Below are positions 31,971 through 47,260 of a stretch of 64,000 nt of DNA, piece after piece. The notes beneath the pieces were generated by a model. It made no database searches. It had not been told where the DNA came from and saw nothing but the letters and a program-made list of their open reading frames with translations. A program made the position numbers and the translations under genes. This stretch comes from Desulfovibrio sp. (GTDB lineage: Bacteria; Desulfobacterota; Desulfovibrionia; Desulfovibrionales; Desulfovibrionaceae). The stretch is from the NCBI GenBank assembly GCA_016208105.1, contig JACQYS010000022.1, positions 186,001 to 250,000 on the forward strand, read 5' to 3'. Each line of letters starts with the position of its first letter. The stretch's first letter is position 1.

Positions 31971-34379
31971 TCACCTGTCGATATCGGGCAGAATGTAGTC
32001 GATGGAGGCCAGGGTGGCCACCAGGTCCGGGATGGTATGCCCCGGCACGAAATGTTTGAGCACCTGCACGTTGGCGTAGCCTGGCGAGCGGATGTGCAGC
32101 CGGTAGGGCGAGGAAAGTCCGTCGCTCACCACGTAGTAGCCCTGTTCGCCTCGCGGCGACTCCGTGACATGGTATGCTTCGCCCCGGGGCACGTTGGGCC
32201 CCCTGGACACGTTGACGAAATGATGGATCAGGCTCTCGATGTCTTTGAGCGTATCCTTCTTTTCCGGCACGCTGTAGCGGTAGTCCTCGGTGATGTGCCG
32301 TCCCGGGGGCATGTCGCGCGCTGCCTGTTCGATGATGCGAAGGCTCTGGCGCATCTCCTCCATGCGCACCCGGTAGCGCGAGAAGCAGTCGCCGCCGTGC
32401 TCGATGGGAACGTCGAAGTCGAAGGCCTCGTAGGCGCCGTAGGGCATCTTCTTGCGCAGGTCCCACTCCAGGCCGCAGGCCCGCAGGTTGGGTCCGGTGA
32501 CGCCCCATTCCATGGCGTCCTTCAAAGCAAGCGGGGTGACCCCCTTGGTGCGGGCCAGAAAGATGGGGTTTCGGTCGAAAAGAGCCTCGTATTCCTTGAT
32601 GCGCGAGGGGAACACCTTGACGAAGGCGTCCACTTTCTCGCGCCATCCCTCGGGCAGGTCCTGGGCCACTCCCCCGATGCGCAGCCAGGACGGGTGCAGC
32701 CTGCCGCCGGTGACGCTCTCGATGAGGTCCAGAATCATCTCGCGTTCGCGGAAGGTGTAGAAGATGGCGCTCATCATGCCCAGGTCCTGCACGAAGGTGC
32801 CGAACCAGAGCAGGTGGTTTGAAAGGCGGAAGAACTCACAGAGCATGATCCGTATGTATTCCGCCCTGTCCGGGACATGGATGCCCGCCAGCTTCTCCAC
32901 GGCCGTGACGTAGGAGAGGTTGTTGGCGAGCCCGGCCAGGTAGTCCACCCGGTCAGTGTAGGGGATGAACTGGTGCCAGGACTGGTGCTCGGCGATCTTC
33001 TCCACCCCCCGGTGGTGGTAGCCGATCTCGATGTCCATATCCCGGATCATCTCGCCGTGCAGGGCCAGGACGTAGCGGAGCACCCCGTGGGTTCCGTAGT
33101 GGTGGGGCCCGAAGTTGAGGAGCATCTCCTCCTCGTCCCCGGAGGTGCCCAAAAGCTCGGCCGCGTCCACCGGCTCCAGGGCGGGCAGGTCGGCCCGGGT
33201 GAAGGGGGGCATGGTGGTGGCCCGGCGCGGGTGGGCCTTCAACAGCGGGTGGCCTGGCCAGTTGGCGTGCAGGATCAGGGGGCGCAGGCGCTGGTGACCG
33301 GAAAAGTCGATGCCGAACATGTCGTGCACTTCGCGTTCGTACCAGTCGGCGCTGGCCCATATGCCGGTGACGCTGTCGATTTCGGGAGCCGCGCCCTGGA
33401 GAGGCACCTTGACGCGCAATCGGGAGGCCTTTCGGAAATTGAGCAGGGTGTAGACCAGGTGGAAGTCCGGATAGCCCTGGGAGGCCTGGCGGGCGGATTC
33501 GTCAATCGCTGTCAGGTCCTCCAGGCGCGCGTACGGAGAGTTTGGCCTGGTCTTCAAGTACTCCAGGACGTCCCGGGCCTTCCCGGCGGGAACGCGCAGG
33601 GTGGGCATGTCCGAAACCGGCTCGACCATCTCGATGCCTGGGCTCCCCTCGTCCTGGCCGAAACGCTCCTGAAGCTCGGCGGCCAGGCTTCTGTCCGGTT
33701 CGGAAATCTCGATGCGCGCGGCCGGCGGGGTCCACATCAGGCGGGAGCGGTTGCCCGCAAAATCCGGGGGCGTGGCCGAGGTGCCCCGTACGGCGGTGCC
33801 CGCGAAACCGGGGCCGCGCGTGTCCATGCTCTTGGTGGCGCCTTCCACGAGTTCCTCGGTGCGCCCGCCCTGGCTGCCGCCGGAAAGCCCGAATATGGGC
33901 CGGGTGGGGCGTTCCAGCTTCACGCGCTGCTGCAGGGCCATGAGCCCGTGCAGGAGGGCCTCTGGTTTGGGCGGACAGCCGGGCACGTAGATGTCCACCG
34001 GCAGAATCTGGTCCACCCCCTGCACCACGGAGTAGACGTCGTACATGCCGCCGGTGTTGGAGCACGAGCCCATTGAGATCACCCACCTGGGCTCGGCCAT
34101 CTGCTCATAGAGCCTTAAGACCACCGGGGCCACCTTCTTGAAGATGGTGCCGGAAACGATGAGCACGTCTGACTGGCGCGGCGAGCCGCGAAACACTTCC
34201 GACCCGAAGCGGGCGATGTCGTAGCGGGCGGTGAAGGCGGTGGCTTCCTCAACAAAACAGCAGGAAAGGCCGAAAAAGAACGGCCACAGGCTGTTGGCGC
34301 GGCACCAGTCCACGGCAAGGTCGACGCTGGAAGGCGCCGTGAGGCCGGGCAGGTCTATTGTCTGGTGGCCGTGCCCCAT
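31971..34379 (-). CDS. nuoBCD: Fused NuoB-NuoC-NuoD subunit
   Basis: One uninterrupted frame of 802 residues encodes three normally separate subunits. The B part (1 to about 160) holds the N2 cluster ligands Cys40, Cys41, Cys106 and Cys135. A Gly/Ala/Pro-rich linker follows (about 165-235). The C part (about 250-395) has [21 protein letters not shown], and the D part (about 415-802) ends [11 protein letters not shown]. The usual D-subunit GPQHP(A/S)xHG reads GPHHYGTHG here. The start at ATG 34379 overlaps nuoA by 25 bp. C-D fusion is well known; a three-way fusion is much rarer. It forms the quinone-binding interface and last cluster of complex I. Confidence 0.92.
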
Positions 34380-34768: not shown

Positions 34769-35051
34769 GCGCTGTACCCTTGGTTCGCTTAAAAGGCGCG
34801 GGCGCCAAAGCGTCCGCAAGAGAAGGTATCTTCCCCACCTTAGCGTATTCTGAAGCAGAGAGTAAAGAAAAAGAACGGGTTGAACCGTGCTCACGCGAAT
34901 TTGGCCGCCCTCGCCCGCGGGCTCGCAGGTGCCAGTTGAGGATGCACGCATGTTGGTTTGCAGGGCGAGGGAATGAATTCATCTGCCACTTTTTTTCGCG
35001 AAAATTTCACCGGAACTCTTCCTCACTTCGGGGCTGGTCAATCGTTACCCG

Positions 35052-35149
35052 CAACAATTGTTTACGCCGCAACAAACGTTGCTTTCCGCATTTATCTCCG
35101 GTGCGGCCAGCATTCCCGGCGGCACCACGTTTTGTGTCAACAAATGTTG
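35052..35149. repeat. Three CAAC-N4-GTTG inverted-repeat sites
   Basis: Copies lie at 35052-35063 (CAACAATTGTTT, one mismatch), 35070-35081 (CAACAAACGTTG) and 35138-35149 (CAACAAATGTTG). The first two start 18 bp apart and also share CCGCAACAA as a direct repeat. They lie about 110, 180 and 200 bp upstream of the expected sigma-54 start, the usual distance for enhancer sites. Confidence 0.6.
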
Positions 35150-35228
35150 CTCGGGAAAGAGTGGGTCGTTTTAGTGGTCTATTTTGCCAATATGCTGAAA
35201 TTAAACGTTTTATTTAGCTTTTAACGGC

Positions 35229-35246
35229 TGGCACGGCCCCTGCTTT
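35229..35246 (+). promoter_or_regulatory. Sigma-54 (-24/-12) promoter of the sqr-like operon
   Basis: TGGCAC-GGCCC-CTGCTTT matches the sigma-54 consensus TGGCAC-N5-TTGCW, with the invariant GG and GC exactly 10 bp apart. It points to the flavoprotein gene at 35336, giving a leader of about 80 nt. Sigma-54 promoters need an NtrC-type activator; one is encoded at 42049-43455. Confidence 0.75.
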
Positions 35247-35335
35247 AGAGGGGAAACGTGGAATGGGGACTCCCCAAGGACGCTTGGGGGACACTGAAAA
35301 CCTAGGTTTCAAAACACGAGAGGAGCCGTTAGGAC

Positions 35336-36571
35336 ATGAAAAAGCTTCTTATTCTTGGTGCCGGCGCCGGCGGTTGCATAATCGCCAACAAAATGCGCCA
35401 GAAGCTGGACGAGAAAGAGTGGAAGATCACCATCATCGATCGCAACACTGTTAACCACTACCAGCCCGGTTGGCTCTTCGTGCCCTTCGGCATCTACGAC
35501 ATCAAGGACTGCATCCGTCCCCTGTCGAGCTTCATTCCCGCTGGCGTTGAATTCATCAACGAAGAGATCACCAACATCGACCCTGTCGGCAAGGTGGTCA
35601 CCACCACCAACTCCAAGGTCGACTACGACTGGATCGTGGTTGCCACCGGTTGCAGCATCATGCCCGACGAGATCGAAGGCATGATGGACGGCTGGAAGAA
35701 GAACATCCACGACTTCTACACCCCCAATGGGGCGGTGGACCTCTGCCACAAGCTGGCCCGGTTCGAGAAAGGCAAGATCTGCCTGAACATTGCCGAAATG
35801 CCCATCAAGTGCCCGGTCGCCCCCCTGGAATTCCTGTTCCTGGCCGACTGGTTCTTCATGACCGAGGGCACCCGCCACAACATCGAGATCGAGCTGGTGA
35901 CCCCGCTCACCGGCGCCTTTACCAAGCCCGTGGCCGCCGCCGCCCTGGGCAAGATCTGCGAAGAGAAGAACATCAAGATCGTTCCCAACTTCGAAATCGC
36001 GGCCGTTGACGCCGAGCGCGGCGTGATGGAATCCATGAAGGGCGACGAAGTGGAGTTCGACCTCCTGGTGGCCATTCCGCCCAACTTCGGCTCCCAGGTG
36101 ATCATCGATTCCGACATCGGCGATCCCATGGGCTACATGAAGACCGACCACTACACCTTGAAGTCTCCCGACTACGAGAACATGTACATCCTGGGCGACG
36201 CCACCAACGTGCCCACCTCCAAGGCCGGTTCCGTGACCCACTTCGAGGCGGATGTTCTCACCGAGAATCTGCACCGCGACATCGAGGGTCTGGCCCCGCG
36301 CCCCGAGTTCGACGGCCACTCCAACTGCTTCATCGTCACCGGCTACGAGAAAGCCGCTCTCATCGACTTCAACTACAAAGTCGAGCCTCTGCCGGGCAAG
36401 TATCCGTTCCCGGGCATCGGACCCTTCGGCCTGCTGGAAGAGTCCTACATGAACTACTGGGGCAAGATGATGTTCAAGTGGGTCTACTTCAATCTCATGC
36501 TCAAAGGTAAGGACCTGCCCCTCGAACCTCAGATGTTCATGGCCGGCAAAAAACGCCCCGGCGGCTTCTAG
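35336..36571 (+). CDS. Sulfide:quinone oxidoreductase-like FAD protein
   Basis: This 411-residue flavoprotein has the FAD Rossmann motif LLILGAGAGGCIIANKM (4-20), WIVVATGCSI (about 100-109), an active-site-like Cys in MPIKCPVAPLEF (about 155-166) and the second FAD motif MYILGDATNVPTSKAG (about 285-300). This is the pattern of the SQR/FCC family. I do not see the full set of redox Cys of a canonical type I SQR, so the substrate could be another sulfur species. It sits behind the sigma-54 promoter and ahead of a DUF1641 gene. The C-terminus (MFKWVYFNLMLKGKDLPLEPQ) resembles the amphipathic membrane-binding end of SQRs. Confidence 0.8.
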   Translation: MKKLLILGAGAGGCIIANKMRQKLDEKEWKITIIDRNTVNHYQPGWLFVPFGIYDIKDCIRPLSSFIPAGVEFINEEITNIDPVGKVVTTTNSKVDYDWIVVATGCSIMPDEIEGMMDGWKKNIHDFYTPNGAVDLCHKLARFEKGKICLNIAEMPIKCPVAPLEFLFLADWFFMTEGTRHNIEIELVTPLTGAFTKPVAAAALGKICEEKNIKIVPNFEIAAVDAERGVMESMKGDEVEFDLLVAIPPNFGSQVIIDSDIGDPMGYMKTDHYTLKSPDYENMYILGDATNVPTSKAGSVTHFEADVLTENLHRDIEGLAPRPEFDGHSNCFIVTGYEKAALIDFNYKVEPLPGKYPFPGIGPFGLLEESYMNYWGKMMFKWVYFNLMLKGKDLPLEPQMFMAGKKRPGGF

Positions 36572-36582
36572 GAGAAGTGACC

Positions 36583-37230
36583 ATGAGCAAAGAGGACCTC
36601 ATTTTAGAAAAACTCGGCAAGATAGAAGCCGAGCTGGCTGTCGCGAGGGAAGCCAGAGAGCCCATGGACGACCTGATCCGGGATCTGAACCCGATCATGA
36701 AGCAGGCTCTCTACGCCCTCATCAAGGAATTCAAGGACGTGGAGGACAGCTTCCAGCTGGAAGACCTCCTGCCTCTCGTCAAGAAGATCCTTGTGAACGT
36801 CAAAAACATCACCTGGGCTCTCGAAGCCCTCGAGACCATCATCGACATGTGGCACACCATGGAGCCGATGATGAAGTCCGCCCTGCACAACACCGTGCGC
36901 TACCTGGGAACCCTGGAGCAGAAGGGCGTGTTCAGGACCTACGAGGCAATGCTCGAAGTTCGCGGCAAAATCGCCCAGCACTACGGCCCCGAAGACATCG
37001 AGGCCATGGGCGACAGCTTCGTGGTTCTCATTGGCCTGCTCAAGAAGATGAGCGACCCCAAGATGCTCGAGCTCTTGGAAAAGCTCACGGACATGCCCGC
37101 CAACATGGAATTGGCCAACGCCAAGCCTGTGGGAATGTTCGGTGTGGTGGGCGCCCTGTCCAACCCCGAGGTGAAGGACGGCATCGGCGTGGCCATGGAA
37201 ATGGTCAAGGCCCTGGGCAAGCTGAAATAA
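36583..37230 (+). CDS. DUF1641 protein, partner of the SQR-like enzyme
   Basis: The start is ATG 36583, 8 nt behind AGGAG; a GTG at 36577 is in frame but poorly placed. The 215-residue product is almost all alpha-helical. It has an N-terminal coiled-coil-like part (EDLILEKLGKIEAELAVARE) and the DUF1641 signature near the C-terminus (KPVGMFGVVGALSNPEVKDGIGVAM). DUF1641 genes commonly neighbour SQR-like or FdhD/formate dehydrogenase genes, but the function is unknown. It lies 11 bp after the flavoprotein stop and is surely co-transcribed. A regulatory or assembly role is only inferred. Confidence 0.82.
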   Translation: MSKEDLILEKLGKIEAELAVAREAREPMDDLIRDLNPIMKQALYALIKEFKDVEDSFQLEDLLPLVKKILVNVKNITWALEALETIIDMWHTMEPMMKSALHNTVRYLGTLEQKGVFRTYEAMLEVRGKIAQHYGPEDIEAMGDSFVVLIGLLKKMSDPKMLELLEKLTDMPANMELANAKPVGMFGVVGALSNPEVKDGIGVAMEMVKALGKLK

Positions 37231-37267: not shown

Positions 37268-37624
37268 ATGGCCAAGAAGATCCTCATAATCGACGACGAC
37301 CCCGAGATCATTTCGTATCTCAAGGACGTCTTTGAAGAGGCCGGCTATGAAACCGTGGGCGCCAAGAACGGCGTCGAGGGCCTGGAAATGGCCCAGGTCC
37401 ACAAACCCGATCTCATCACCCTGGACATGGACATGCCCGCCCGCGGCGGCACCCTGTTCTATGTGAAGCTTCGCCAGGAACCGCAGCTGGCCGAGATCCC
37501 GGTTATCGTGATCAGCGGCGTGGGCCCCCGCCCGCCGGTTCTGACCAAGAACGTCCCGGTGATCACCAAGCCCGTGGACGTTGAGAAGACCCTGAAGATG
37601 GTCAAGGAAATGATCGCCGGCTAG
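37268..37624 (+). CDS. Stand-alone CheY-like response-regulator receiver
   Basis: This 118-residue single receiver domain has the acidic pocket IDDD (Asp10, Asp11), phospho-acceptor Asp53 in LITLDMDMP, the switch Ser in VIVISGVG and Lys in VITKPVD. It has no output domain. It follows the DUF1641 gene by 37 bp and is closed by a terminator, so it belongs to the sqr-like operon. A likely role is phosphorelay or protein-protein control of the flavoprotein/DUF1641 pair or of the kinases just downstream. Confidence 0.88.
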   Translation: MAKKILIIDDDPEIISYLKDVFEEAGYETVGAKNGVEGLEMAQVHKPDLITLDMDMPARGGTLFYVKLRQEPQLAEIPVIVISGVGPRPPVLTKNVPVITKPVDVEKTLKMVKEMIAG

Positions 37625-37712: not shown

Positions 37713-37820
37713 TCTCGGGGATGGCTGGTGAGGACGTGTTGCCGCATGCTGTTTAGAAGGATACAGAGAAGAAAAATCTGAACGCGATTGCGGTCTTCAC
37801 GCGCTTTAAGGAGTGGCTTC

Positions 37821-39737
37821 ATGGGCGAGAAAGTGATGCTGGTCGACGACGAGGACGCCATCCGGGAAATCCTCGGGCTCTCCATCGCCGACCTGGGCTA
37901 TGATGTCCAGACAGCGGCCAACGGCGAGGAAGCCCTGGAGGCGCTCGAAGTTTTCGTTCCATCCATCGTGCTGACAGACATCAAGATGCCGGGCATGGAC
38001 GGCATCGAGCTCCTAAAGCGCATCAAGGAAATAAGTCCCGACATCGAAGTGATCATGATCTCCGGTCATGGAGACATGGACCTGGCCGTGAAGAGCCTTC
38101 AGTACGAAGCCCTGGATTTCATCACCAAGCCCATCCGCGACGAGCTTCTGATAAACGCGCTCAAGCGCGCCGCCGAAAAGATCGGCATGCGCCGCCAACT
38201 GCGCGAGCACACCCAGAACCTGGAGCGCATCGTCAAGGAGAAGTCCGCAAAGCTTGTGGAACTGGAGCGCCAGCTGGCCGTGGGCCAGGTGGTGGAGGGT
38301 CTTTCCACGGCCATGCGCTGCCTGGTGGAAACCTTCGACGAGGGCATGGGCTATTTCAACCAGCTGCCCTGCTTTATATCCATCCACAACCGCTATCTGG
38401 AAGTGGTGGCCGTGAACCAGCTCTATGAGGATCGCCTGGGCAACATGACTGGAAAAAATTCCTGGGAGGTCTATTCCCAGCGACAGGGCAGCGGCAACGC
38501 CTGCCCCGTGGCCAAGACCATCGAATCCGGTAAGGCCCAGCGCAGCCCGGAAATTCTCATGGGCAAGGACGGGAGCGAAGTCCCTGTCATTGTCCATACA
38601 GCGCCGATCATGAGCAACGACGGACAAGTCGAGATGGTCATCGAACTGTCCGTGGACGTTACGGAAGTGAACAGGCTCCAGGAGGAACTGCGGGCCACCC
38701 GCGAAAAGTTCCACCGGCTTTTCGATTCCGTGCCGTGCTACATCGAGGTGGTGGACCGCGAGCACAACATAGTGGAGGCCAACCGCCGCTTCCGGCAGGA
38801 TTTCGGCGAGTGCCGGGGCAGCAAGTGTTTCACTACGTTCACCCACCGTGAGGATCCCTGCCAGGAGTGCCCCATCTCGCTCACCTTCGAGGACGGGGAG
38901 TCCCACCAGTGGGAGACCGTGGTCACCACCAAGGACGGCTCGCAGCGTATCGTGCTCATCCAGACCGCTCCGGTGCATGACGACAAAGGCCAGATAGAGC
39001 AGGTGATGGAGATATCCACGGACATCACCCAGATCCGCCAGCTCCAGGACCACCTGGCCTCGCTTGGGCTCATGCTCGGCTCCATGTCCCACGGCGTGAA
39101 GGGCCTGCTCACCTCCTTGGACGGCGGAGTGTACAAGGTGGAGGCCGGATTCAAGCGTGACGACGCCGAACGCCTGCGCGACGGCTGGGCCATTGTGAAA
39201 GACAAGATCAGCCGCATCCGCCGGATGGTTCTGGACATTCTCTATTACGCCAAATCTCGTGAAACCGAGCTCGCGCAAGTGGACCTTGGCGCGTTCGCCA
39301 AGGACCTGGCCGCCATCATCGAACCCAAGGCGCAGCAGAGGAAGGTGGGGTTCAGGCTGGAGGCGGGCGAAGATCTCGGCGAGACCGGCCTGGACGAAAC
39401 CGCCATGTCCGCCGCTCTGGTGAACCTTCTGGAAAACGCCGTGGACGCCTGCGCCGAGGACGACACCAAGCCGGAACACCACGTGGTGTTCAAGGTGACG
39501 GCCGATGCCGACACGGTGCGCTTCGAGGTTGCCGACGACGGCATGGGAATGGACCAGGAAACCAGGGAGAAGATGTTCACCCTGTTCTTTTCTTCCAAGG
39601 GGTCGCGCGGCACTGGGCTGGGGCTTTTCATCTCCAACCAGGTCATCGAGCGCCACGGGGGCACCATAGACGTTCAGTCGGAACTGGGCACGGGGACGTC
39701 CATAATCGTCACCATGCCCCGTACCCGGGCTTCATGA
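37821..39737 (+). CDS. Receiver-PAS-PAS-histidine kinase hybrid (cytoplasmic)
   Basis: The start is ATG 37821 behind AAGGAG; the open frame 33 bp further upstream has no site. The 638-residue protein has an N-terminal receiver (Asp53 in VLTDIKMPGMDG) and a short coiled coil (LREHTQNLERIVKEKSAKLV). Two PAS domains follow, about 165-290 and 300-415. The second contains a Cys cluster, KCFTTFTHREDPCQECP. The HisKA-like region has His424 (GSMSHGVKGLL), and the HATPase has N (LLENAVDAC), DDGMGMD and GSRGTGLGLFIS boxes. It has no membrane segment. It may receive phosphate from another kinase and pass it on. Confidence 0.88.
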   Translation: MGEKVMLVDDEDAIREILGLSIADLGYDVQTAANGEEALEALEVFVPSIVLTDIKMPGMDGIELLKRIKEISPDIEVIMISGHGDMDLAVKSLQYEALDFITKPIRDELLINALKRAAEKIGMRRQLREHTQNLERIVKEKSAKLVELERQLAVGQVVEGLSTAMRCLVETFDEGMGYFNQLPCFISIHNRYLEVVAVNQLYEDRLGNMTGKNSWEVYSQRQGSGNACPVAKTIESGKAQRSPEILMGKDGSEVPVIVHTAPIMSNDGQVEMVIELSVDVTEVNRLQEELRATREKFHRLFDSVPCYIEVVDREHNIVEANRRFRQDFGECRGSKCFTTFTHREDPCQECPISLTFEDGESHQWETVVTTKDGSQRIVLIQTAPVHDDKGQIEQVMEISTDITQIRQLQDHLASLGLMLGSMSHGVKGLLTSLDGGVYKVEAGFKRDDAERLRDGWAIVKDKISRIRRMVLDILYYAKSRETELAQVDLGAFAKDLAAIIEPKAQQRKVGFRLEAGEDLGETGLDETAMSAALVNLLENAVDACAEDDTKPEHHVVFKVTADADTVRFEVADDGMGMDQETREKMFTLFFSSKGSRGTGLGLFISNQVIERHGGTIDVQSELGTGTSIIVTMPRTRAS

Positions 39738-39753: not shown

Positions 39754-42048
39754 ATGAAAGGGCTTCTCGAATCGTTTCGCAGCAGGCTGGTCTTAAAGAT
39801 CACCTTTCCCATCGCCTTCATTTTGTTCGCGAGCATCTTTCTGTGGTCCTTCTATCACGTGCAGTACCAGAAGGAGGCCACGGTCGAGAACCTCATCATG
39901 GGCGCGGACCGCGTGGCCAGCACGGTGAAGCTGGGCCTGCACTACGCCATGATGCTCAACTCCCGCGAAGACATCCAGGCCATCGTCAACAACTACAGCA
40001 AGCTTCAGGAAATCCGCAACGTCCGCATCATCAACAAGGCCGGGGAGGTGATGTTCGCCACCTCGCCGGATCAGACCCGCGTGGTCATCACCCGCAGGGA
40101 CCCCTTGTGCCAGGCCTGCCACCAGGGCCTCGAAGCCAGGCTTCAGCCGAGCCTGACCGACGCCATCTACAAGGACTCCGAGGAGAACGGAGAACGGGTT
40201 CTCAGGCTTGTGACCCCGATCTTGAACGAACAGGGATGCTCGGACCCCTCGGGCTGCCACTTCCACAAGGCCGGGGAAAAAATACTGGGAGTTTTGGACC
40301 TGGCGTTTTCCCTGTCCGGCGCGGATGAACTCATAAGCGAGAGCAGGCAGCACACGCTCTACCTGGCATTCATCCAGTTCATCGTCACCTTCGCCACCCT
40401 GGCCGTGCTGTTCCTGGCTCTGGTGAAGCGGCCGATCAACTCCATAATACACGACGCCAGGCTCATCGCCCAGGGCAAGGCCCTCAAACGCCAGAGCGTG
40501 AAAAGCGACGACGAGATCGGCCAGCTGGCCGAGGCCATCTACCAGATGGGCTCGGACCTCATGGCCAAGAACAACCAGCTCTCGCTGCAGAAGAATCTCT
40601 ACCAGGACCTGTTCGAGGGAGTGCCGTGCGTTATCACGGTGCAGGACCGCGATTTCAGGCTCCTGCGCTTCAACAAGACCTTCGAGGAACGCTTCAACGC
40701 GCGTCTCGGGGAATTCTGCTTCAAGGCCTACAAGGGCCGCGACTCCAAGTGTCCGGACTGCCCGGTGGAAAAAACCTTCAATACCGGCAGGTTCCAGACC
40801 ACCGAGGAGTCCGGCTGCTATCGGGACGGCTCCATGGCGCACTGGATAGTGAACACGGCCCCCATCTATGATTCCGAGGGGAATCTGGTGGCGGCCATGG
40901 AGATGTGCCTGGACATCACCGAACGCAAGGATCTGGAGCGGGAGCTCAAGCGTTCGGAAAAGAAGTACATGGCCATCTTCAACAACATACCTAACGCCGT
41001 GTTCGTGCTCGACCAGGAAGACTTCACCATCCGCGACTGCAACATGAGCGCCGTTCACCTCTACGGCTGGACCAAGTCCGAACTGTCCAGGATGAGCTTT
41101 CTGGACCTGTTCGCGGATGTCGAGAAGGCGGCCTTCGTAAAGACGCTCAAGAAGAACAAGGATATCGACCAGGTCAAGCACATCACCAAGGACGGCCGGG
41201 AGTTCTTTGTCTCCATCAATTCCTCGCCGACCGAGTACAATAAGCGCAAGGTTTTCCTGGTGACCGTGGGCGACATCTCCAACCGCCTGGAAACGGAGCA
41301 GCAGCTCATTCAGGCCAGCAAGATGGCTACCCTGGGCGAGATGGCCACGGGCGTGGCCCATGAGATCAACCAGCCCCTGGCCGTCATCCAGACCAGCGTG
41401 GACCTCATAAAGCGCAGCCTCAGCCGCGGGGAGCTTCCGGCCGAGGCTTTGCTCAGGCGCGTCACCGAGTTGGTTGTTCAACAAGTGGAGCGAGCCACCA
41501 AGATCATCAGCCACATGCGCGAATTCGGCCGCAAATCCGACATCCAGCTGGATGAGGTGGCCTTAAACGACGTGCTCAAGCGATCCTTCGACTTTTTCAG
41601 CCAGCAGCTGGCGCTGAGAAGCATCGAGGTGGTCTGGGAACTCGATGAGAAGCTTCCTTTGGTCCGCTGCGAGTCAAACCGCATGGAGCAGGTGTTCATA
41701 AACTTCTTCATCAACGCCCGGGACGCCATCGAGGAGCGCGCCGCGAAACCGGACGGCAGGCAGGTGCCGAAACGCATCACCATAAAGACCATGCACAACA
41801 ACGAGTTCGTCACCGTACGCATATCGGACACCGGCACGGGCGTGCCCGAAGCCGCCATGATGCGTATTTTCGAGCCGTTTTTTACCACCAAGCAGGTGGG
41901 CAAGGGAACTGGGCTCGGGCTCTCCATCAGCTACGGCATCGTCAAGGAGTGCGGGGGGACCATAAACGTGGTGAACAACGAGGACGGCGGCGCGAGCTTC
42001 TACGTGCGCCTGCCCATCCCGGGGGAAAGACCTGGGGGCGGAGAGTAA
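39754..42048 (+). CDS. Membrane histidine kinase with periplasmic c-type haem motif
   Basis: The protein has 764 residues. TM1 (about 17-34) and TM2 (about 203-224) bracket a periplasmic domain of about 170 residues holding a CxxCH haem-c motif, Cys119-Cys122-His123, and a second C-x5-CH (Cys162, Cys168, His169). HAMP (about 225-275), two PAS domains (about 285-400 and 405-520; the first has DSKCPDCP), HisKA with His536 (GVAHEINQPLAV) and a complete HATPase follow. Periplasmic c-haem sensing domains are known, for example in the chemoreceptor DcrA of Desulfovibrio; here the output is a kinase. It likely senses redox state, O2 or NO. The ATG follows AGGGAGAAGG, 16 bp after the hybrid kinase stop. 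Confidence 0.88.
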   Translation: MKGLLESFRSRLVLKITFPIAFILFASIFLWSFYHVQYQKEATVENLIMGADRVASTVKLGLHYAMMLNSREDIQAIVNNYSKLQEIRNVRIINKAGEVMFATSPDQTRVVITRRDPLCQACHQGLEARLQPSLTDAIYKDSEENGERVLRLVTPILNEQGCSDPSGCHFHKAGEKILGVLDLAFSLSGADELISESRQHTLYLAFIQFIVTFATLAVLFLALVKRPINSIIHDARLIAQGKALKRQSVKSDDEIGQLAEAIYQMGSDLMAKNNQLSLQKNLYQDLFEGVPCVITVQDRDFRLLRFNKTFEERFNARLGEFCFKAYKGRDSKCPDCPVEKTFNTGRFQTTEESGCYRDGSMAHWIVNTAPIYDSEGNLVAAMEMCLDITERKDLERELKRSEKKYMAIFNNIPNAVFVLDQEDFTIRDCNMSAVHLYGWTKSELSRMSFLDLFADVEKAAFVKTLKKNKDIDQVKHITKDGREFFVSINSSPTEYNKRKVFLVTVGDISNRLETEQQLIQASKMATLGEMATGVAHEINQPLAVIQTSVDLIKRSLSRGELPAEALLRRVTELVVQQVERATKIISHMREFGRKSDIQLDEVALNDVLKRSFDFFSQQLALRSIEVVWELDEKLPLVRCESNRMEQVFINFFINARDAIEERAAKPDGRQVPKRITIKTMHNNEFVTVRISDTGTGVPEAAMMRIFEPFFTTKQVGKGTGLGLSISYGIVKECGGTINVVNNEDGGASFYVRLPIPGERPGGGE

Positions 42049-43455
42049 CTAGCCTGTTTTCTTGCGTTTCTTTGTCAGCAAACGCCTGTTCAGCGCCTGA
42101 CGCGTAATTCCAAGCATTTTGGCGGCCACGCTCTGGTTGCCGCCCGCCCGTTCCAGGGCTTCGTTAATCACCCGCTCCTCGGCCTGCTTGAGGGTCATCA
42201 CCCCGTGCTCCATCTCGCCAAGCACCGCAGGGAAAAGCTCCGGCCGGACGCTCCCGCGCACCGACCCCACCCAATCCTTGAAGGGCTCCATGGACAGGAC
42301 CGCCCCTTCGCTTAGGGCCACGGCGTTGAAAATCATGGCTTCGAGTTCGCGCACGTTGCCCGGGAACCTATGCCCGGCAAGAAGCGGCGCCAGTTGCGCA
42401 GGGGCCTGGGGCGTGGGTTTTCCCAGTCGGTCCGCCGCCTTCTCCAGGAAGTGTTCCGTTAGAAGCTCCAGGTCGTCCATGCGTTCGCGAAGGGCCGGGA
42501 TGGCCACATAGTGCGTGCGCAGCCGGAAGAAGAGGTCGCGCCGGAACGTGCCCTGTTCGATCATCTCTTCCAGGGCCTGGTTGGTGGCAACGATGATGCG
42601 CGCTTCCACGGGTTTTAAGGTGTCTGAACCCAGGGGGTAGTATTCGCGCTCCTGGATCAGGCGCAGGAGCTTGAGCTGGGAGGCCTTGGCCAGGTCGCCT
42701 ATCTCGTCCAGAAAGAGCGTGCCCCCGGTGGCCTCCTCGATGAGTCCGCGCCGGCCGATGTTCGCCCCGGTGAAGGCTCCTTTCTTGTGCCCGAAGAGCG
42801 TGTCCGAGAACATGGCGTCATCCAAACCCGCCACGTTCACGCCCACGAATTTTCCCGAGCGGCCGCTTTGGTCGTGGATGGCCCTGGCCACGAGCTCCTT
42901 GCCCACCCCGGTTTCGCCAGTGACCAAAACCGGTTCATCCGATCCGGCCACAGCCTGTACATAGGCCAGGAGGGATTTCATGCGGGCGTTGCCCGTGACG
43001 ATGCGAGCCAAGGCGTTCTCGCTGGGCTCTTGCTGTAATTGGCTGGGCGGATTCTCCGGGCGCGCGGCGGGGCTTGCCTCCAGGGCATGGCGCACCGCGG
43101 ACAAGAGGTGGGCCCGGTCCACGGGTTTGACCAGGTAATCCACCGATCCCGCCCGCATGCAGCGCACGGCCGTCTCAACTTCGTTGAAACCGGTGACGAT
43201 GATGACCGGAAGGCCCGGGTGCTCGTTCTTAATGTAGCTGAGCACCTCTTCCCCGCGCATCTGGGGCATGCACAGGTCGAGCATGACCAGGGACACCTGC
43301 TGGCGGCTCAGGATGTTCTTCACCTCGAGAGGATTCTGGCAGCGGATTGTGTTTGTCAGGCCGGAATAACGCAGGTTCAGGTCGTAGCTTTGCAGGGCCT
43401 GCTCTTCGTCGTCCACGAGAAGGATCGGGTGCTTGGGTATGAGTGCCGTGCCCAT
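42049..43455 (-). CDS. NtrC-family sigma-54-dependent response regulator
   Basis: This 468-residue protein starts at ATG 43455, 9 nt behind AGGAG; a TTG three codons upstream is less likely. The receiver has Asp60 in LVMLDLCMP. The AAA+ domain has Walker A GETGVGKE (180-187) and the sigma-54 contact loop GAFTGA (226-231). A Fis-type helix-turn-helix ends the protein (NQSVAAKMLGITRQALNRRL). It activates sigma-54 promoters after phosphorylation. Its stop touches that of the c-haem kinase gene (convergent, zero gap), and its own kinase lies directly upstream. The sigma-54 promoter at 35229 is the obvious candidate target. Confidence 0.92.
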   Translation of the reverse strand: MGTALIPKHPILLVDDEEQALQSYDLNLRYSGLTNTIRCQNPLEVKNILSRQQVSLVMLDLCMPQMRGEEVLSYIKNEHPGLPVIIVTGFNEVETAVRCMRAGSVDYLVKPVDRAHLLSAVRHALEASPAARPENPPSQLQQEPSENALARIVTGNARMKSLLAYVQAVAGSDEPVLVTGETGVGKELVARAIHDQSGRSGKFVGVNVAGLDDAMFSDTLFGHKKGAFTGANIGRRGLIEEATGGTLFLDEIGDLAKASQLKLLRLIQEREYYPLGSDTLKPVEARIIVATNQALEEMIEQGTFRRDLFFRLRTHYVAIPALRERMDDLELLTEHFLEKAADRLGKPTPQAPAQLAPLLAGHRFPGNVRELEAMIFNAVALSEGAVLSMEPFKDWVGSVRGSVRPELFPAVLGEMEHGVMTLKQAEERVINEALERAGGNQSVAAKMLGITRQALNRRLLTKKRKKTG

Positions 43456-43456
43456 G

Positions 43457-45007
43457 TCAGGCAATCTCCTGCATTATGGCGGGAAGAACCACGGTGGCGG
43501 TGGTCCCGGCGCCCCGGACGGATTCGATCAGGAGCTGGCCGCCGTGCTCCCGGGCGATGGAGAGCGAGATCGAGAGACCAAGTCCGGTTCCGCCTTGTTC
43601 GCGTTTGGTGGAGTAGAACGGTTCGGTGATCTTGGGCAGGTCCTCCGGGCGGATGCCCTCCCCCTGGTCCCGGACCACTATGCGAACGCTGGCCGAAGGT
43701 TCGTGGAAGAGAGTTTCAATTTCGATTCCCTGGTGCGGGCCGACCAAAGCGTGGCAGGAGTTCTGCACCAGATTGACCACGATCTGTTCCAGGCGCTGCC
43801 TGCGCCCCCGCACCAAAGGAAGGCCGTTGCCGTAGCGCACGGCGAACCGGGTGGTGTGCAGCCCGATGGTTTTGCTCATGAGAAGCACCGCGGACTGCAC
43901 CACATCGTTGACCGGAAGCATCTCGAAACCGCTCTCCGCGTCCTGGCGGGAAAAGTTCTTGAGTTCTCGCACGAAATCCCGAATGCGCTCGGACCCCTCG
44001 ATGATGCCCGTGAGGAGCTGGGGCACGTGCCGGGAGATGTCCGAAACGGGAATCCCGCCCAGCATGCCGTCGTCCGTGTCCCTGGCGATGGTCTCCAGGC
44101 TTGGGGCCACTGTTCTCCAGAGGTCGAGCACCAGGGGGGCGTTCAACATGATGAAGTTGTTGGGGTTGCTGATCTCATGCGCCACCTCGGAAACCAGGGT
44201 GCCAAGCGAGACCAGCCTGTCGGCGTGAATGAACTGCGATTCCGTTACCTTCTGGCCGGTCACGTCGATGCCCGCCACCTGGTAGTCCTTGATGTGCCCG
44301 GTTTTGTAGAAAAAACCCTGTATGATCCAGCGCATCCAAACGGGAGGAGAATCAGGGTTCGCGCTCACTTCCTGGTGCTCCAACTCCGCCATGGGGTTCT
44401 CCGGGGTGATGGAGGACACGGCCTGGCTGAAGCGCTCGCGAAGGGCCGGTTCCAGAAGAAGAAGAAAATCCTCGCCGACCATTTCCGTCCGCGTTCTGCC
44501 AAAGGATCGGGCAATGGCCGTGTTGGCGTATGTCAGGCTCCAGTTGGGCAGGAAGCAGCAGATGAGGTCGGGGCGGGTTTCAACGATGGACTGGTAGAGG
44601 TTCTTGCGGTTCACCAGGCCTTCTATGGCCACCTTGTAGCGGGTCACGTCGTCAATTATGAGCCTTGCCCACCTTCCATGCCCCTCGAACTCCATATGGT
44701 CAACGCGCACGCGAACCCAGGCCAGGCTGCCGTCGGCCTTGGCTATGGGTTTTTCCATGTCGAACCAGATACCCTCGTTGGCCAGAAAATCCTCGATGCT
44801 GTCGTGGATGCCCACGCAAAAAACACTCAGGACGTCTGAAAACGTCATGAGCTCCAGGTCGCTCGCGGTGCATTCCGTCAAGGCGAAGAACTCGTCGTTG
44901 GCGTAGGCCACGTTCTGGTCCGGCCCGGCCAAAACCACGGCCGAAGGCAGTCCCGAGTATGAGGCCGCGAGTGCGTGCGTTTGGAGGCCTGGAAATTTGA
45001 CGTACAT
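43457..45007 (-). CDS. PAS-PAS histidine kinase paired with the NtrC-type regulator
   Basis: The chosen start is ATG 45007 (MYVKFPGLQTHALAA), giving 516 residues; a GTG at 45124 is also open and adds 39 residues without family support. It has two PAS domains (about 20-140 and 150-260), HisKA with His277 (LVSEVAHEISNPNNF) and a HATPase with NLVQNSCHAL, DQGEGI and GGTGLGLSIS. No membrane segment is apparent, so it is cytoplasmic. Its TGA is followed by the regulator ATG after one base, a classic coupled pair. Confidence 0.85.
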   Translation of the reverse strand: MYVKFPGLQTHALAASYSGLPSAVVLAGPDQNVAYANDEFFALTECTASDLELMTFSDVLSVFCVGIHDSIEDFLANEGIWFDMEKPIAKADGSLAWVRVRVDHMEFEGHGRWARLIIDDVTRYKVAIEGLVNRKNLYQSIVETRPDLICCFLPNWSLTYANTAIARSFGRTRTEMVGEDFLLLLEPALRERFSQAVSSITPENPMAELEHQEVSANPDSPPVWMRWIIQGFFYKTGHIKDYQVAGIDVTGQKVTESQFIHADRLVSLGTLVSEVAHEISNPNNFIMLNAPLVLDLWRTVAPSLETIARDTDDGMLGGIPVSDISRHVPQLLTGIIEGSERIRDFVRELKNFSRQDAESGFEMLPVNDVVQSAVLLMSKTIGLHTTRFAVRYGNGLPLVRGRRQRLEQIVVNLVQNSCHALVGPHQGIEIETLFHEPSASVRIVVRDQGEGIRPEDLPKITEPFYSTKREQGGTGLGLSISLSIAREHGGQLLIESVRGAGTTATVVLPAIMQEIA

Positions 45008-45227
45008 GGCCGGGCCCGTTCCTGGTCTGTATGGCTGCGATCCGACCCGGACAAGACCTTTCCGGGCGGGTATGTGGCTCGTATCTTCTACGAGTTTTCT
45101 TTGCAAGTCGTCGTTAAAAAACACAATCGAATGGCACTCCTGCTGTGGATGCCTTGCAAAGCGGAACTTTATTCCATACGACAGTTTCTACCAGCACTCC
45201 CCGCAAACAAAGCCCAGGAGCTTCCGC

Positions 45228-45896
45228 ATGTTTTTTACTCGATTCATGGCCAACGTGACAGGCCGAAAGCGCCTTCCGGGACTGCTTGAGCATTATGAAC
45301 CGGTGGCCAAGGGTGTCATGGTGGTGGAAGCCGCCTTGAAGGAATATGCCAATAACGGGCTTGGCGTGGCTTTTCAGGCCCTTGCGGTGGAGATCGACAC
45401 GCTGGAGGGCCAGGCCGACAAGATCAAGCGCCGCATCCGCCGCCTCCCAAGGGATTTCTTCATGGAGGTGGACAAGACCCTGTTTCTCAACTTCACCCGC
45501 AGCCAGGACAACATCCTGGATTCGGCGCAGGACGCCTTGAACTGGCTCGGCATGCGCCAGATGGTGTTGCCCAAGGAACTTCTGACATCGGCCCGGGCCT
45601 TGACCCGGGAAGCCTGCCGTTCGGTTGAGCTTTTGAAACCGGCCATCCAGGGGACGATGGACCTGGTTTACGGGCAAACCAAGGACAGGACCGCTGTCAA
45701 GGACAACTACCATACGGTCCGCGTGCAGCACAGCAAGGTCTCGCGATCCTCCCGGAAACTCTTGCGCGAGTGCTTGGCGGAGGAGGGGGACTTCAAGAAC
45801 ATCTATCAGTTCGTCAAATTCATCGAGCATGTCCACGAAATGAGCCACAACGCCGAAGGCGCCGCCGACGTTCTCCGTGCCATGATTGCCAGGTAG
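45228..45896 (+). CDS. DUF47 (PhoU-like) protein without adjacent Pit partner
   Basis: The start is ATG 45228, 8 nt behind AGGAG, giving 222 residues of helical DUF47/TIGR00153 type. EIDTLEGQADKIKRRIRRLP (about 54-73) matches the E-x-x-AD helix used for metal/phosphate sensing in PhoU-like folds. DUF47 proteins usually pair with Pit transporters. This one has none and stands between a kinase and an efflux operon; a second DUF47 gene at 52061 does have its Pit. The role here is unclear. Confidence 0.8.
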   Translation: MFFTRFMANVTGRKRLPGLLEHYEPVAKGVMVVEAALKEYANNGLGVAFQALAVEIDTLEGQADKIKRRIRRLPRDFFMEVDKTLFLNFTRSQDNILDSAQDALNWLGMRQMVLPKELLTSARALTREACRSVELLKPAIQGTMDLVYGQTKDRTAVKDNYHTVRVQHSKVSRSSRKLLRECLAEEGDFKNIYQFVKFIEHVHEMSHNAEGAADVLRAMIAR

Positions 45897-45935
45897 ACCG
45901 CCTTTCCCCCGTTCTTTCAGCCGCGTTCAAGACTC

Positions 45936-45941
45936 TTGACA
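45936..45941 (+). promoter_or_regulatory. -35 element of the RND efflux operon
   Basis: A perfect TTGACA. The expected -10 window (about 45958-45964) falls inside the palindromic operator and is a poor match to TATAAT, which fits a repressed or activator-assisted promoter. Confidence 0.5.
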
Positions 45942-45957
45942 CCGGCCTTTTCGAACA

Positions 45958-45977
45958 TTAGTTAGCTATCTAACTAA
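45958..45977. promoter_or_regulatory. Perfect palindrome, likely MarR operator
   Basis: TTAGTTAG-CTAT-CTAACTAA has 8-bp perfect arms. The core TTAG-N4-CTAA is the SlyA/MarR-type recognition pattern. It overlaps the -10 region 16 bp after TTGACA and lies 65 bp upstream of the MFP gene. The operon ends with a MarR gene, so autorepression is likely. Confidence 0.72.
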
Positions 45978-46042
45978 CGGCTACGGACGTTGAAACTCGC
46001 CTGACAAGCTGCGGTGTTCGTATTATTCCGGAGGAATTCCAC

Positions 46043-47260
46043 ATGTCTGCATACTATCAGCTGCGCCAGCGGCGCGGGATGATTTTGTCGGTCTGTCTCA
46101 CAGGCCTTTTCGCCCTGTCCGCCTTGTCCGGTTGCGGCAAGGAAAGTGCCGGGCAACCTCCCGCGGGAGGCATGCCGCCCATGCCGGTGGTTGTGAAGAC
46201 CATGACCAAGGCGGATATCCCCCTTGATATTGAATACATGGGCCAAGTCACTGGTTCTCGCGAGGTGGAGGTCCGGGCCCGCGTGGGCGGCATATTGCTT
46301 CGGCGCAGCTATGTGGAAGGCTCGCAGGTCCGCCAGGGAGATCTCATGTTCGAGATCGACCCCGAACCGTTCAAGGCCGCTCTCGAGCAGGCCCAGGGTG
46401 CTCTCGGCCAGTCCGAAGCGCGCCTGCAGCGGGCCACGCGCGACCTGGCCCGCATGCGCAAGCTCCGCCAGGAGGACGTCATCAGCCAGAAGGACAATGA
46501 CGACGCCCAGACCGAGTTCGAAGCCGCCTCGGCCGAGGTGCGGACCTCCCAGGCCAAGGTGCGCGAGGCCCGCATCAACCTGGGTTACACCCGGGTGGAG
46601 GCCCCCATCACCGGCGTCACCAGCAAGGAAACACGCTCCGAGGGGAGCCTGGTGGGAACCGGGACCGATTCCAGCCTGCTGACCGTGGTGAATCGCATCG
46701 ACCCTGTGTACGTGAATTTCTCCATTTCCAACGCCGATGCCAGCAAGTACCGCAAGGACAGGGCTTCCGGGCGCATGGCCTTCGAAAACGGCCGGGATTT
46801 CGAGGTGCGCCTGCTGCTTTCCGACGGAACCGTGTTTCCCCATTCCGGACACATCAATTTCATGGACACCCAGGTGGACACCCAGACCGGGGTGGTCAAG
46901 GTGCGGGCCGAAGTTCCCAATCCCAAAGGCGAGCTCATGCCCGGCCAGTTTGTTCGGGCCAAGCTGGCCGGTTCGGTGCTCAAGGAGGCCATGTCCATCC
47001 CTCAGGGGGCGGTGCTGCAGACACAGCAGGGCACCATGATCTGGGTGGTGAACGACAAGAACGTAGTGGAGCCGCGCATCGTCACCCTGGGGCCCACCCT
47101 GGGGAACTCCTACCTTGTCGAGGGCGGCGTTAACCCCGGGGAACGAGTGGTGGTCGAAGGCGTCATCAAGGTACAGCCCGGCGCCACCGTGAACCCCAGG
47201 GAAGCGGGCGCGCAGCCGGCCACGGCCGCACCGGCCGCACCGGCCGGGCAGGCCGGATAA
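46043..47260 (+). CDS. RND efflux membrane-fusion (adaptor) lipoprotein, AcrA/MexE type
   Basis: This 405-residue protein has a signal peptide with lipobox LSGC (Cys31), so it is anchored to the inner membrane and faces the periplasm. The biotinyl-lipoyl halves (REVEVRARVGGILLRRSYVEG and RVEAPITGVTS) flank an alpha-helical hairpin (about 105-170, rich in AxxQ heptads). A beta-barrel domain follows. It bridges the RND pump to an outer-membrane channel. GGAGGAATTCCAC precedes the ATG. No TolC-like gene is in the operon, so the channel must be encoded elsewhere. The C-terminus is Ala/Pro-rich. Confidence 0.92.
   Translation: MSAYYQLRQRRGMILSVCLTGLFALSALSGCGKESAGQPPAGGMPPMPVVVKTMTKADIPLDIEYMGQVTGSREVEVRARVGGILLRRSYVEGSQVRQGDLMFEIDPEPFKAALEQAQGALGQSEARLQRATRDLARMRKLRQEDVISQKDNDDAQTEFEAASAEVRTSQAKVREARINLGYTRVEAPITGVTSKETRSEGSLVGTGTDSSLLTVVNRIDPVYVNFSISNADASKYRKDRASGRMAFENGRDFEVRLLLSDGTVFPHSGHINFMDTQVDTQTGVVKVRAEVPNPKGELMPGQFVRAKLAGSVLKEAMSIPQGAVLQTQQGTMIWVVNDKNVVEPRIVTLGPTLGNSYLVEGGVNPGERVVVEGVIKVQPGATVNPREAGAQPATAAPAAPAGQAG

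Follow-up and report, generated by a model that had tools for sequence, protein, structure and literature searches.

The locus studied here raises the question of what switches an operon headed by a sulfide:quinone reductase (SQR) gene, and whether the same switch serves the nuo genes on its other side. The DNA analysed, a stretch of 64 kb that we call the window, had received a preliminary description, according to which a sigma-54 promoter with three upstream CAAC-N4-GTTG sites lies between the two operons and answers to an NtrC-type protein encoded nearby. We consider it very probable that a sigma-54 promoter serves an SQR-DUF1641-receiver-HK1-HK2 operon and is controlled by the kinase HK3 together with the NtrC-type activator (Table 1). 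This explanation rests on sequence, conservation, synteny and phylogenetic pairing, which are presented in turn below.

Table 1. Features of the SQR region, with positions in the window
Feature	Position	Strand	Remarks
Upstream activator site 1 (putative), CAACAATTGTTT	35052-35063	+	one mismatch; first of tandem pair
Upstream activator site 2 (putative), CAACAAACGTTG	35070-35081	+	exact CAAC-N4-GTTG; 18 bp from site 1
Upstream activator site 3 (putative), CAACAAATGTTG	35138-35149	+	exact CAAC-N4-GTTG; about -111
IHF-like site, TTTCAGCATATTG	35188-35200	-	one mismatch to WATCARN4TTR; between site 3 and promoter
-24/-12 sigma-54 promoter element, TGGCACGGCCCCTGCT	35229-35244	+	one mismatch to TGGCACN5TTGCW
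Leader hairpin, candidate CsrA-type site	35271-35290	+	GGA at loop; 7 genus genomes
Type III sulfide:quinone reductase (SQR) gene	35336-36571	+	NCBIfam NF049943
DUF1641 protein gene	36577-37230	+	PF07849
Stand-alone receiver protein gene	37268-37624	+	PF00072
Receiver-PAS histidine kinase gene HK1	37788-39737	+	domains, synteny
PAS histidine kinase gene HK2	39754-42048	+	domains, synteny
NtrC-type sigma-54 activator gene, proposed activator	42049-43464	-	receiver, AAA+, Fis-type HTH
PAS histidine kinase gene HK3	43457-45124	-	overlaps and lies upstream of activator gene; first ~25-50 codons doubtful

The product of the first operon gene scores 656.5 bits against NCBIfam NF049943 (type III SQR, selenoprotein subtype; cut-off 525), and its best solved matches are sulfide:quinone oxidoreductase entries. 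Two of its cysteines line up with Cys201 and Cys379, the catalytic cysteines of human SQR: IKCPVAP is matched there by VKCAGAP, and SNCFIVTG by TSCPLVTG. The order SQR-DUF1641-receiver-HK1-HK2 recurs in most of the loci compared, with or without the motif described below, and spacing and orientation indicate that the five genes are probably co-transcribed. A domain search found no persulfide dioxygenase among them. As a separate observation, NCBI names this SQR family a selenoprotein subtype, and no stop was reported within the match, here or in strong homologues; we found no literature on a selenoprotein SQR in Desulfovibrio.

The near-consensus promoter element anticipated in the preliminary description was recovered. 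Its GG and GC are spaced as in TGGCACN5TTGCW. It ends 91 bp before the SQR gene start and is the only single-mismatch match among the 22 found in the window at ≤2 mismatches, a count that by itself shows no enrichment (38.6 expected). Of the three repeats described as CAAC-N4-GTTG, two are exact (sites 2 and 3) and the third (site 1) has one mismatch; their proposed distances of about -110, -180 and -200 hold, with centres at about -111, -179 and -197 relative to an assumed start near 35254. Enhancers usually lie at distances of this order. The two exact repeats are the only ones in the 64 kb (0.97 expected), and 29 of 100 shuffles reach this number, so that the count alone is not significant. 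Sites 1 and 2 form the sole pair in the window with members 16–20 bp apart and at most one mismatch each, against 0.02 such pairs expected per mononucleotide-shuffled window. Since motif counts in a single genome are not significant, we placed the weight of evidence on conservation.

SQR homologues were drawn from 59 relatives and 199 family members (SQR is encoded in 61 of the latter, at E ≤ 1e-120), and for 75 homologues we read the upstream DNA. This set includes second copies and omits two weak hits (L051, L052), a G165 hit that starts at a contig end, and 22 named loci. A relaxed rule called for a -24/-12 element at ≤2 mismatches and at least two sites at ≤1 mismatch, 60–290 bp upstream of the element; a strict rule called in addition for one exact site. 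Under the relaxed rule, which was set after G030, G166, G175 and G190 had been seen (these four lack an exact site and pass this rule only), the architecture was found in 16 of 75 upstream regions versus 3 of 4500 dinucleotide shuffles. Under the strict rule the figures were 12/75 and 1/4500. The repeats thus recur upstream of some SQR homologues, as the preliminary description had proposed to check. The 16 motif-bearing genomes comprise all seven of the window's genus, g1 (G000–G006), and nine from four other genera (G011, G015, G020, G030, G166, G175, G183, G190 and G197). Among the named loci, the architecture was seen in none of the 17 scanned; those outside the 17 are L009, L010, L012 and L030, which match contigs of G006, G001, G054 and G047, and L022, which has 27 bp upstream.

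In all 16 genomes the -24/-12 element has at most two mismatches. The distance from site 1 to site 2 is 17–19 bp in 15 of them; G015 and G175 have the tandem only with a 2-mismatch member, and G020 has one tandem site alone at ≤1 mismatch. Site 3 follows site 2 by 68–79 bp (127 in G011) and precedes the -24 GG by 70–98 bp. From 47 sites at ≤1 mismatch, the consensus is approximately (T/G)CAAC-N4-GTTG(C/A). In 14 of the 16 genomes the interval from the last site to the promoter contains an IHF-like sequence (≤1 mismatch), compared with a shuffled mean of 1.6 and a maximum of 5 in 300 rounds. A search of 11 motif-bearing genomes for exact tandem pairs gave three, one apiece in G001, G006 and G011 and each at the SQR promoter, with none for the reversed-pattern control; the other eight genomes, our own included, lack an exact tandem because at least one site is mismatched or missing. 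The elements could in principle be chance matches, and the single-window counts of both motifs, near or below expectation, would allow this, but the arrangement is kept in 16 genomes despite diverged flanks, and we regard chance as next to negligible. Separately, locus L034 (G002) has a possible fourth site, with one mismatch, at about -365 from SQR.

Which protein would bind these sites? The NtrC-type protein has a receiver at its N-terminus (PF00072, 1.8e-24), followed by AAA+ and Fis-type HTH domains in Pfam, and GAFTGA is present in the translation; an rpoN gene is present in the genome. The activators of the first 11 motif-bearing genomes all fell on one side of a branch (11/11; support 100/99), and several of these genomes also carry a paralogue, about 50% identical, which stands apart from that branch. 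In a tree of 57 rows, the activators of 15 out of 15 motif-bearing genomes grouped with support 0.999, without motif-negative members at the cut-offs used. The sixteenth genome, G190, has a fragment of the activator (contig C181) that shares 96% identity with its G030 counterpart across 168 residues. Motif-negative genomes in the activator search amounted to 9/20 at a cut-off of 1e-100 and 41/46 at 1e-115, the 41 including G165, without upstream sequence in which to judge the motif, and G218, with 117 bp only. Because E-value cuts were applied and part of the candidates scored, weak activator orthologues in motif-negative genomes could have been missed.

Gene position points in the same direction. 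By coordinates, SQR is directly preceded by the activator gene in six genomes (G011, G015, G020, G175, G183 and G197), at gaps of about 276–661 bp. The activator gene lies downstream of HK2, about 7–10 kb from the SQR start, in G000, G002 and G005, about 20 kb from SQR in G030 and G166, and on a separate contig from SQR in G001, G003, G004 and G006. The proposal that this nearby protein regulates the SQR operon is therefore supported, as its clade tracks the motif and its gene adjoins SQR in six genomes, and we conclude that it is likely the activator of the SQR-DUF1641-receiver operon. It might instead be that the promoter is genuine but the repeats are operators for a different protein, such as a repressor, and that the NtrC-type pair is co-inherited for other reasons. 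A palindromic CAAC-N4-GTTG by itself names no protein, which leaves room for such a regulator; yet the activator clade is paired with the motif in 16/16 genomes (one via a fragment), has no member in motif-negative genomes at the cut-offs used and includes the six genes next to SQR, and the sites at -111 to -197 fall in the usual enhancer range. We judge this alternative improbable.

The activator's partner is probably HK3: all 14 relatives compared have an HK3 homologue at their activator locus (39–73% identity, with matches beginning at residue 23 or later). The activator could also receive its main input from HK1, HK2 or the lone receiver, in which case the operon would form a feedback loop; these three share one conserved block. 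However, that block also occurs at motif-negative loci without an activator gene in the stretch read (e.g. L068, L069 and L071), whereas HK3 is found with the activator both in the window and in the 14 relatives; we therefore hold a feedback loop to be unlikely. Cys189 and Cys457 of HK3 were considered as redox sensors. They are identical in 15/15 rows, yet we do not take this as evidence, because cysteines at such positions are common in PAS and N-box motifs. A redox signal for the circuit is possible.

In the mechanism that we propose, sigma-54 RNA polymerase would transcribe the operon from SQR to HK2, and the two-component pair encoded at 42049-45124 would control the promoter. Once phosphorylated, the activator would occupy the tandem (about -197/-179) as well as site 3 near -111. 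The AT-rich spacer may be bent by IHF or a similar protein, and opening of the -24/-12 complex would then fall to the ATPase of the activator, so that the direction of control would be activation.

The regulon may comprise the SQR promoter only. The pattern YCAACN4GTTGM occurs at 15 places in the genome versus 31 for the reversed control, and the single site is not enriched. None of the 14 places away from SQR has a neighbour 16–20 bp off, none has a -24/-12 element placed as at SQR, and 13 of them lie inside mechanical ORFs of at least 100 aa. That these other exact sites are without the architecture suggests a one-promoter regulon, as judged on exact sites. Autoregulation of the HK3-activator pair was considered and is not supported: positions 44901-46200 of the window are without tandem sites and contain a single one-mismatch site at 45981, together with a 2-mismatch -24/-12-like match at 46136 (-), about 1 kb from HK3. 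Five other activator loci (L091–L095) have no tandem sites either, and three of them have single one-mismatch matches.

The preliminary description had named nuo as a possible second target. A switch acting on the divergent nuo operon as well would accord with the position of the sites between nuo and SQR in the genome studied. Still, nuo adjoins the SQR region in just four of the seven genus genomes (G000, G003, G005 and G006) and was not found within 6 kb upstream in G001, G002 and G004, so the sites persist without it; in six genomes from other genera the activator gene takes that position. Towards nuo there is no -24/-12-like element at ≤2 mismatches, and three appear at 3 mismatches. Co-control of nuo is thus not supported and appears highly improbable. 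The nuo genes offer an observation of their own: NuoB, NuoC and NuoD domains lie in one uninterrupted frame at window positions 31971-34360 (-; start approximate). This frame, which is likewise matched in one piece in G003, G005 and G006, looks like a NuoBCD fusion.

The circuit had been presented as one that could not be matched to a described system. This is right in part, but FisR, a sigma-54 activator of sqr operons, is a close parallel, the closest that we found. The regulatory domain at the N-terminus of FisR is not known to be a receiver, and by this description FisR is set apart from the activator studied here, which has a receiver and an adjoining kinase gene. The operon differs as well, with no persulfide dioxygenase among its five genes and an SQR of type III, and so does the host, one of the sulfate-reducing relatives of Desulfovibrio. 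The enhancers through which NtrC acts at glnA combine tandem upstream sites, a receiver-type activator and a -24/-12 promoter; this is the layout seen here, with another site sequence and another target. For Acinetobacter baumannii, PMC7315123 describes activation by FisR of an operon for sulfide oxidation that includes sqr; the paper cites the same control for Cupriavidus pinatubonensis, and according to it the sensing cysteines known in Cupriavidus are not conserved in the A. baumannii protein. The likeness, on that account, is a sigma-54 activator with AAA+ and DNA-binding domains and an operon that contains a sulfide:quinone oxidoreductase (PMC7315123).

Among the sigma-54 regulons of D. 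vulgaris Hildenborough, most comprise one to four operons, and activator genes are often co-localised with the promoter, an arrangement conserved across relatives, as stated in sections of Kazakov et al. (2015, PMC4641369). Their co-localisation argument is of the same kind as ours (PMC4641369), and together with regulons of one to four operons it means that the kind of system is already known. The main text of that paper, motif-logo figures apart, contains no CAAC, GTTG, sulfide, quinone or DUF1641 (PMC4641369). Titles and abstract openings among the matches listed in our literature searches did not describe the circuit, and none was found on two-component or sigma54 control of SQR in sulfate-reducing hosts. 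In our reading, the system is a new sigma-54 two-component regulon of a single operon, with an outcome analogous to that of sqr control by FisR. It would give an otherwise anonymous sigma-54 activator a proposed promoter, DNA site and target, and a known switch would make it possible to test why sulfide makers keep, and tightly gate, a sulfide-oxidising enzyme.

A second layer of control may act on the leader of the SQR transcript. The leader hairpin, with its GGA at the loop, resembles a CsrA site, and a csrA gene is present in the genome. Across the seven genus genomes (six distinct rows), 97.9% of cells are paired; two pairs are changed on both sides, a number reached by 111 of 500 shuffles, and one pair is broken in G002. 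The fold z-score is only -1.4, and an Rfam search of the SQR leader returned no match up to E = 5. As CsrA-type control, the hairpin is suggestive only.

How the sigma-54 arrangement arose can be approached through the SQR loci that lack it. A tblastn search (E ≤ 1e-4) of the 1.5 kb preceding SQR detected an Rrf2-like frame at 30 of 59 motif-negative loci, which include ten second SQR copies and one locus with 117 bp upstream only, versus 0 of 16 motif-bearing loci. The four such frames given to Pfam all match PF02082. The other 29 of the 59 have neither arrangement in the stretch read. Among named loci, 10 of 17 have an Rrf2-like frame, several of them titled Desulfobacterales or Desulfobacula. 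Rrf2-family regulators thus resemble our activator in standing upstream of the same SQR gene in related genomes, but they belong to another family and were undetected at all 16 motif-bearing loci. Across relatives, two unrelated types of regulator are thus found ahead of this one sulfide-oxidising gene. A literature search for Rrf2 control of sqr in sulfate-reducing hosts led to work on Acidithiobacillus.

In the SQR tree (FastTree, 60 rows), the motif rows do not form a clean clade; the smallest clade that holds them has 19 rows, three of them without the motif, with support 0.469. A single gain of the sigma-54 arrangement is plausible. At that support of 0.469, the SQR tree is compatible with one origin followed by change in the L011/G117/G072 lineage, the direction of change being our interpretation. 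More tentatively, and with the odds somewhat against it, one branch may have moved SQR control from a local Rrf2-type regulator to a sigma-54 phosphorelay and added CsrA-type control of the leader. If true, this would mean that a sulfate reducer uses kinase signalling to time the return of sulfide into the quinone pool.

Individual loci depart from these two arrangements. At L068 (G010), the 1.5 kb upstream of SQR yielded neither regulator, and a pyridine-nucleotide oxidoreductase-rhodanese fusion is encoded upstream of SQR. L030 and L072 each have two consecutive Rrf2-like frames upstream of SQR, one of those in L072 being confirmed by Pfam.
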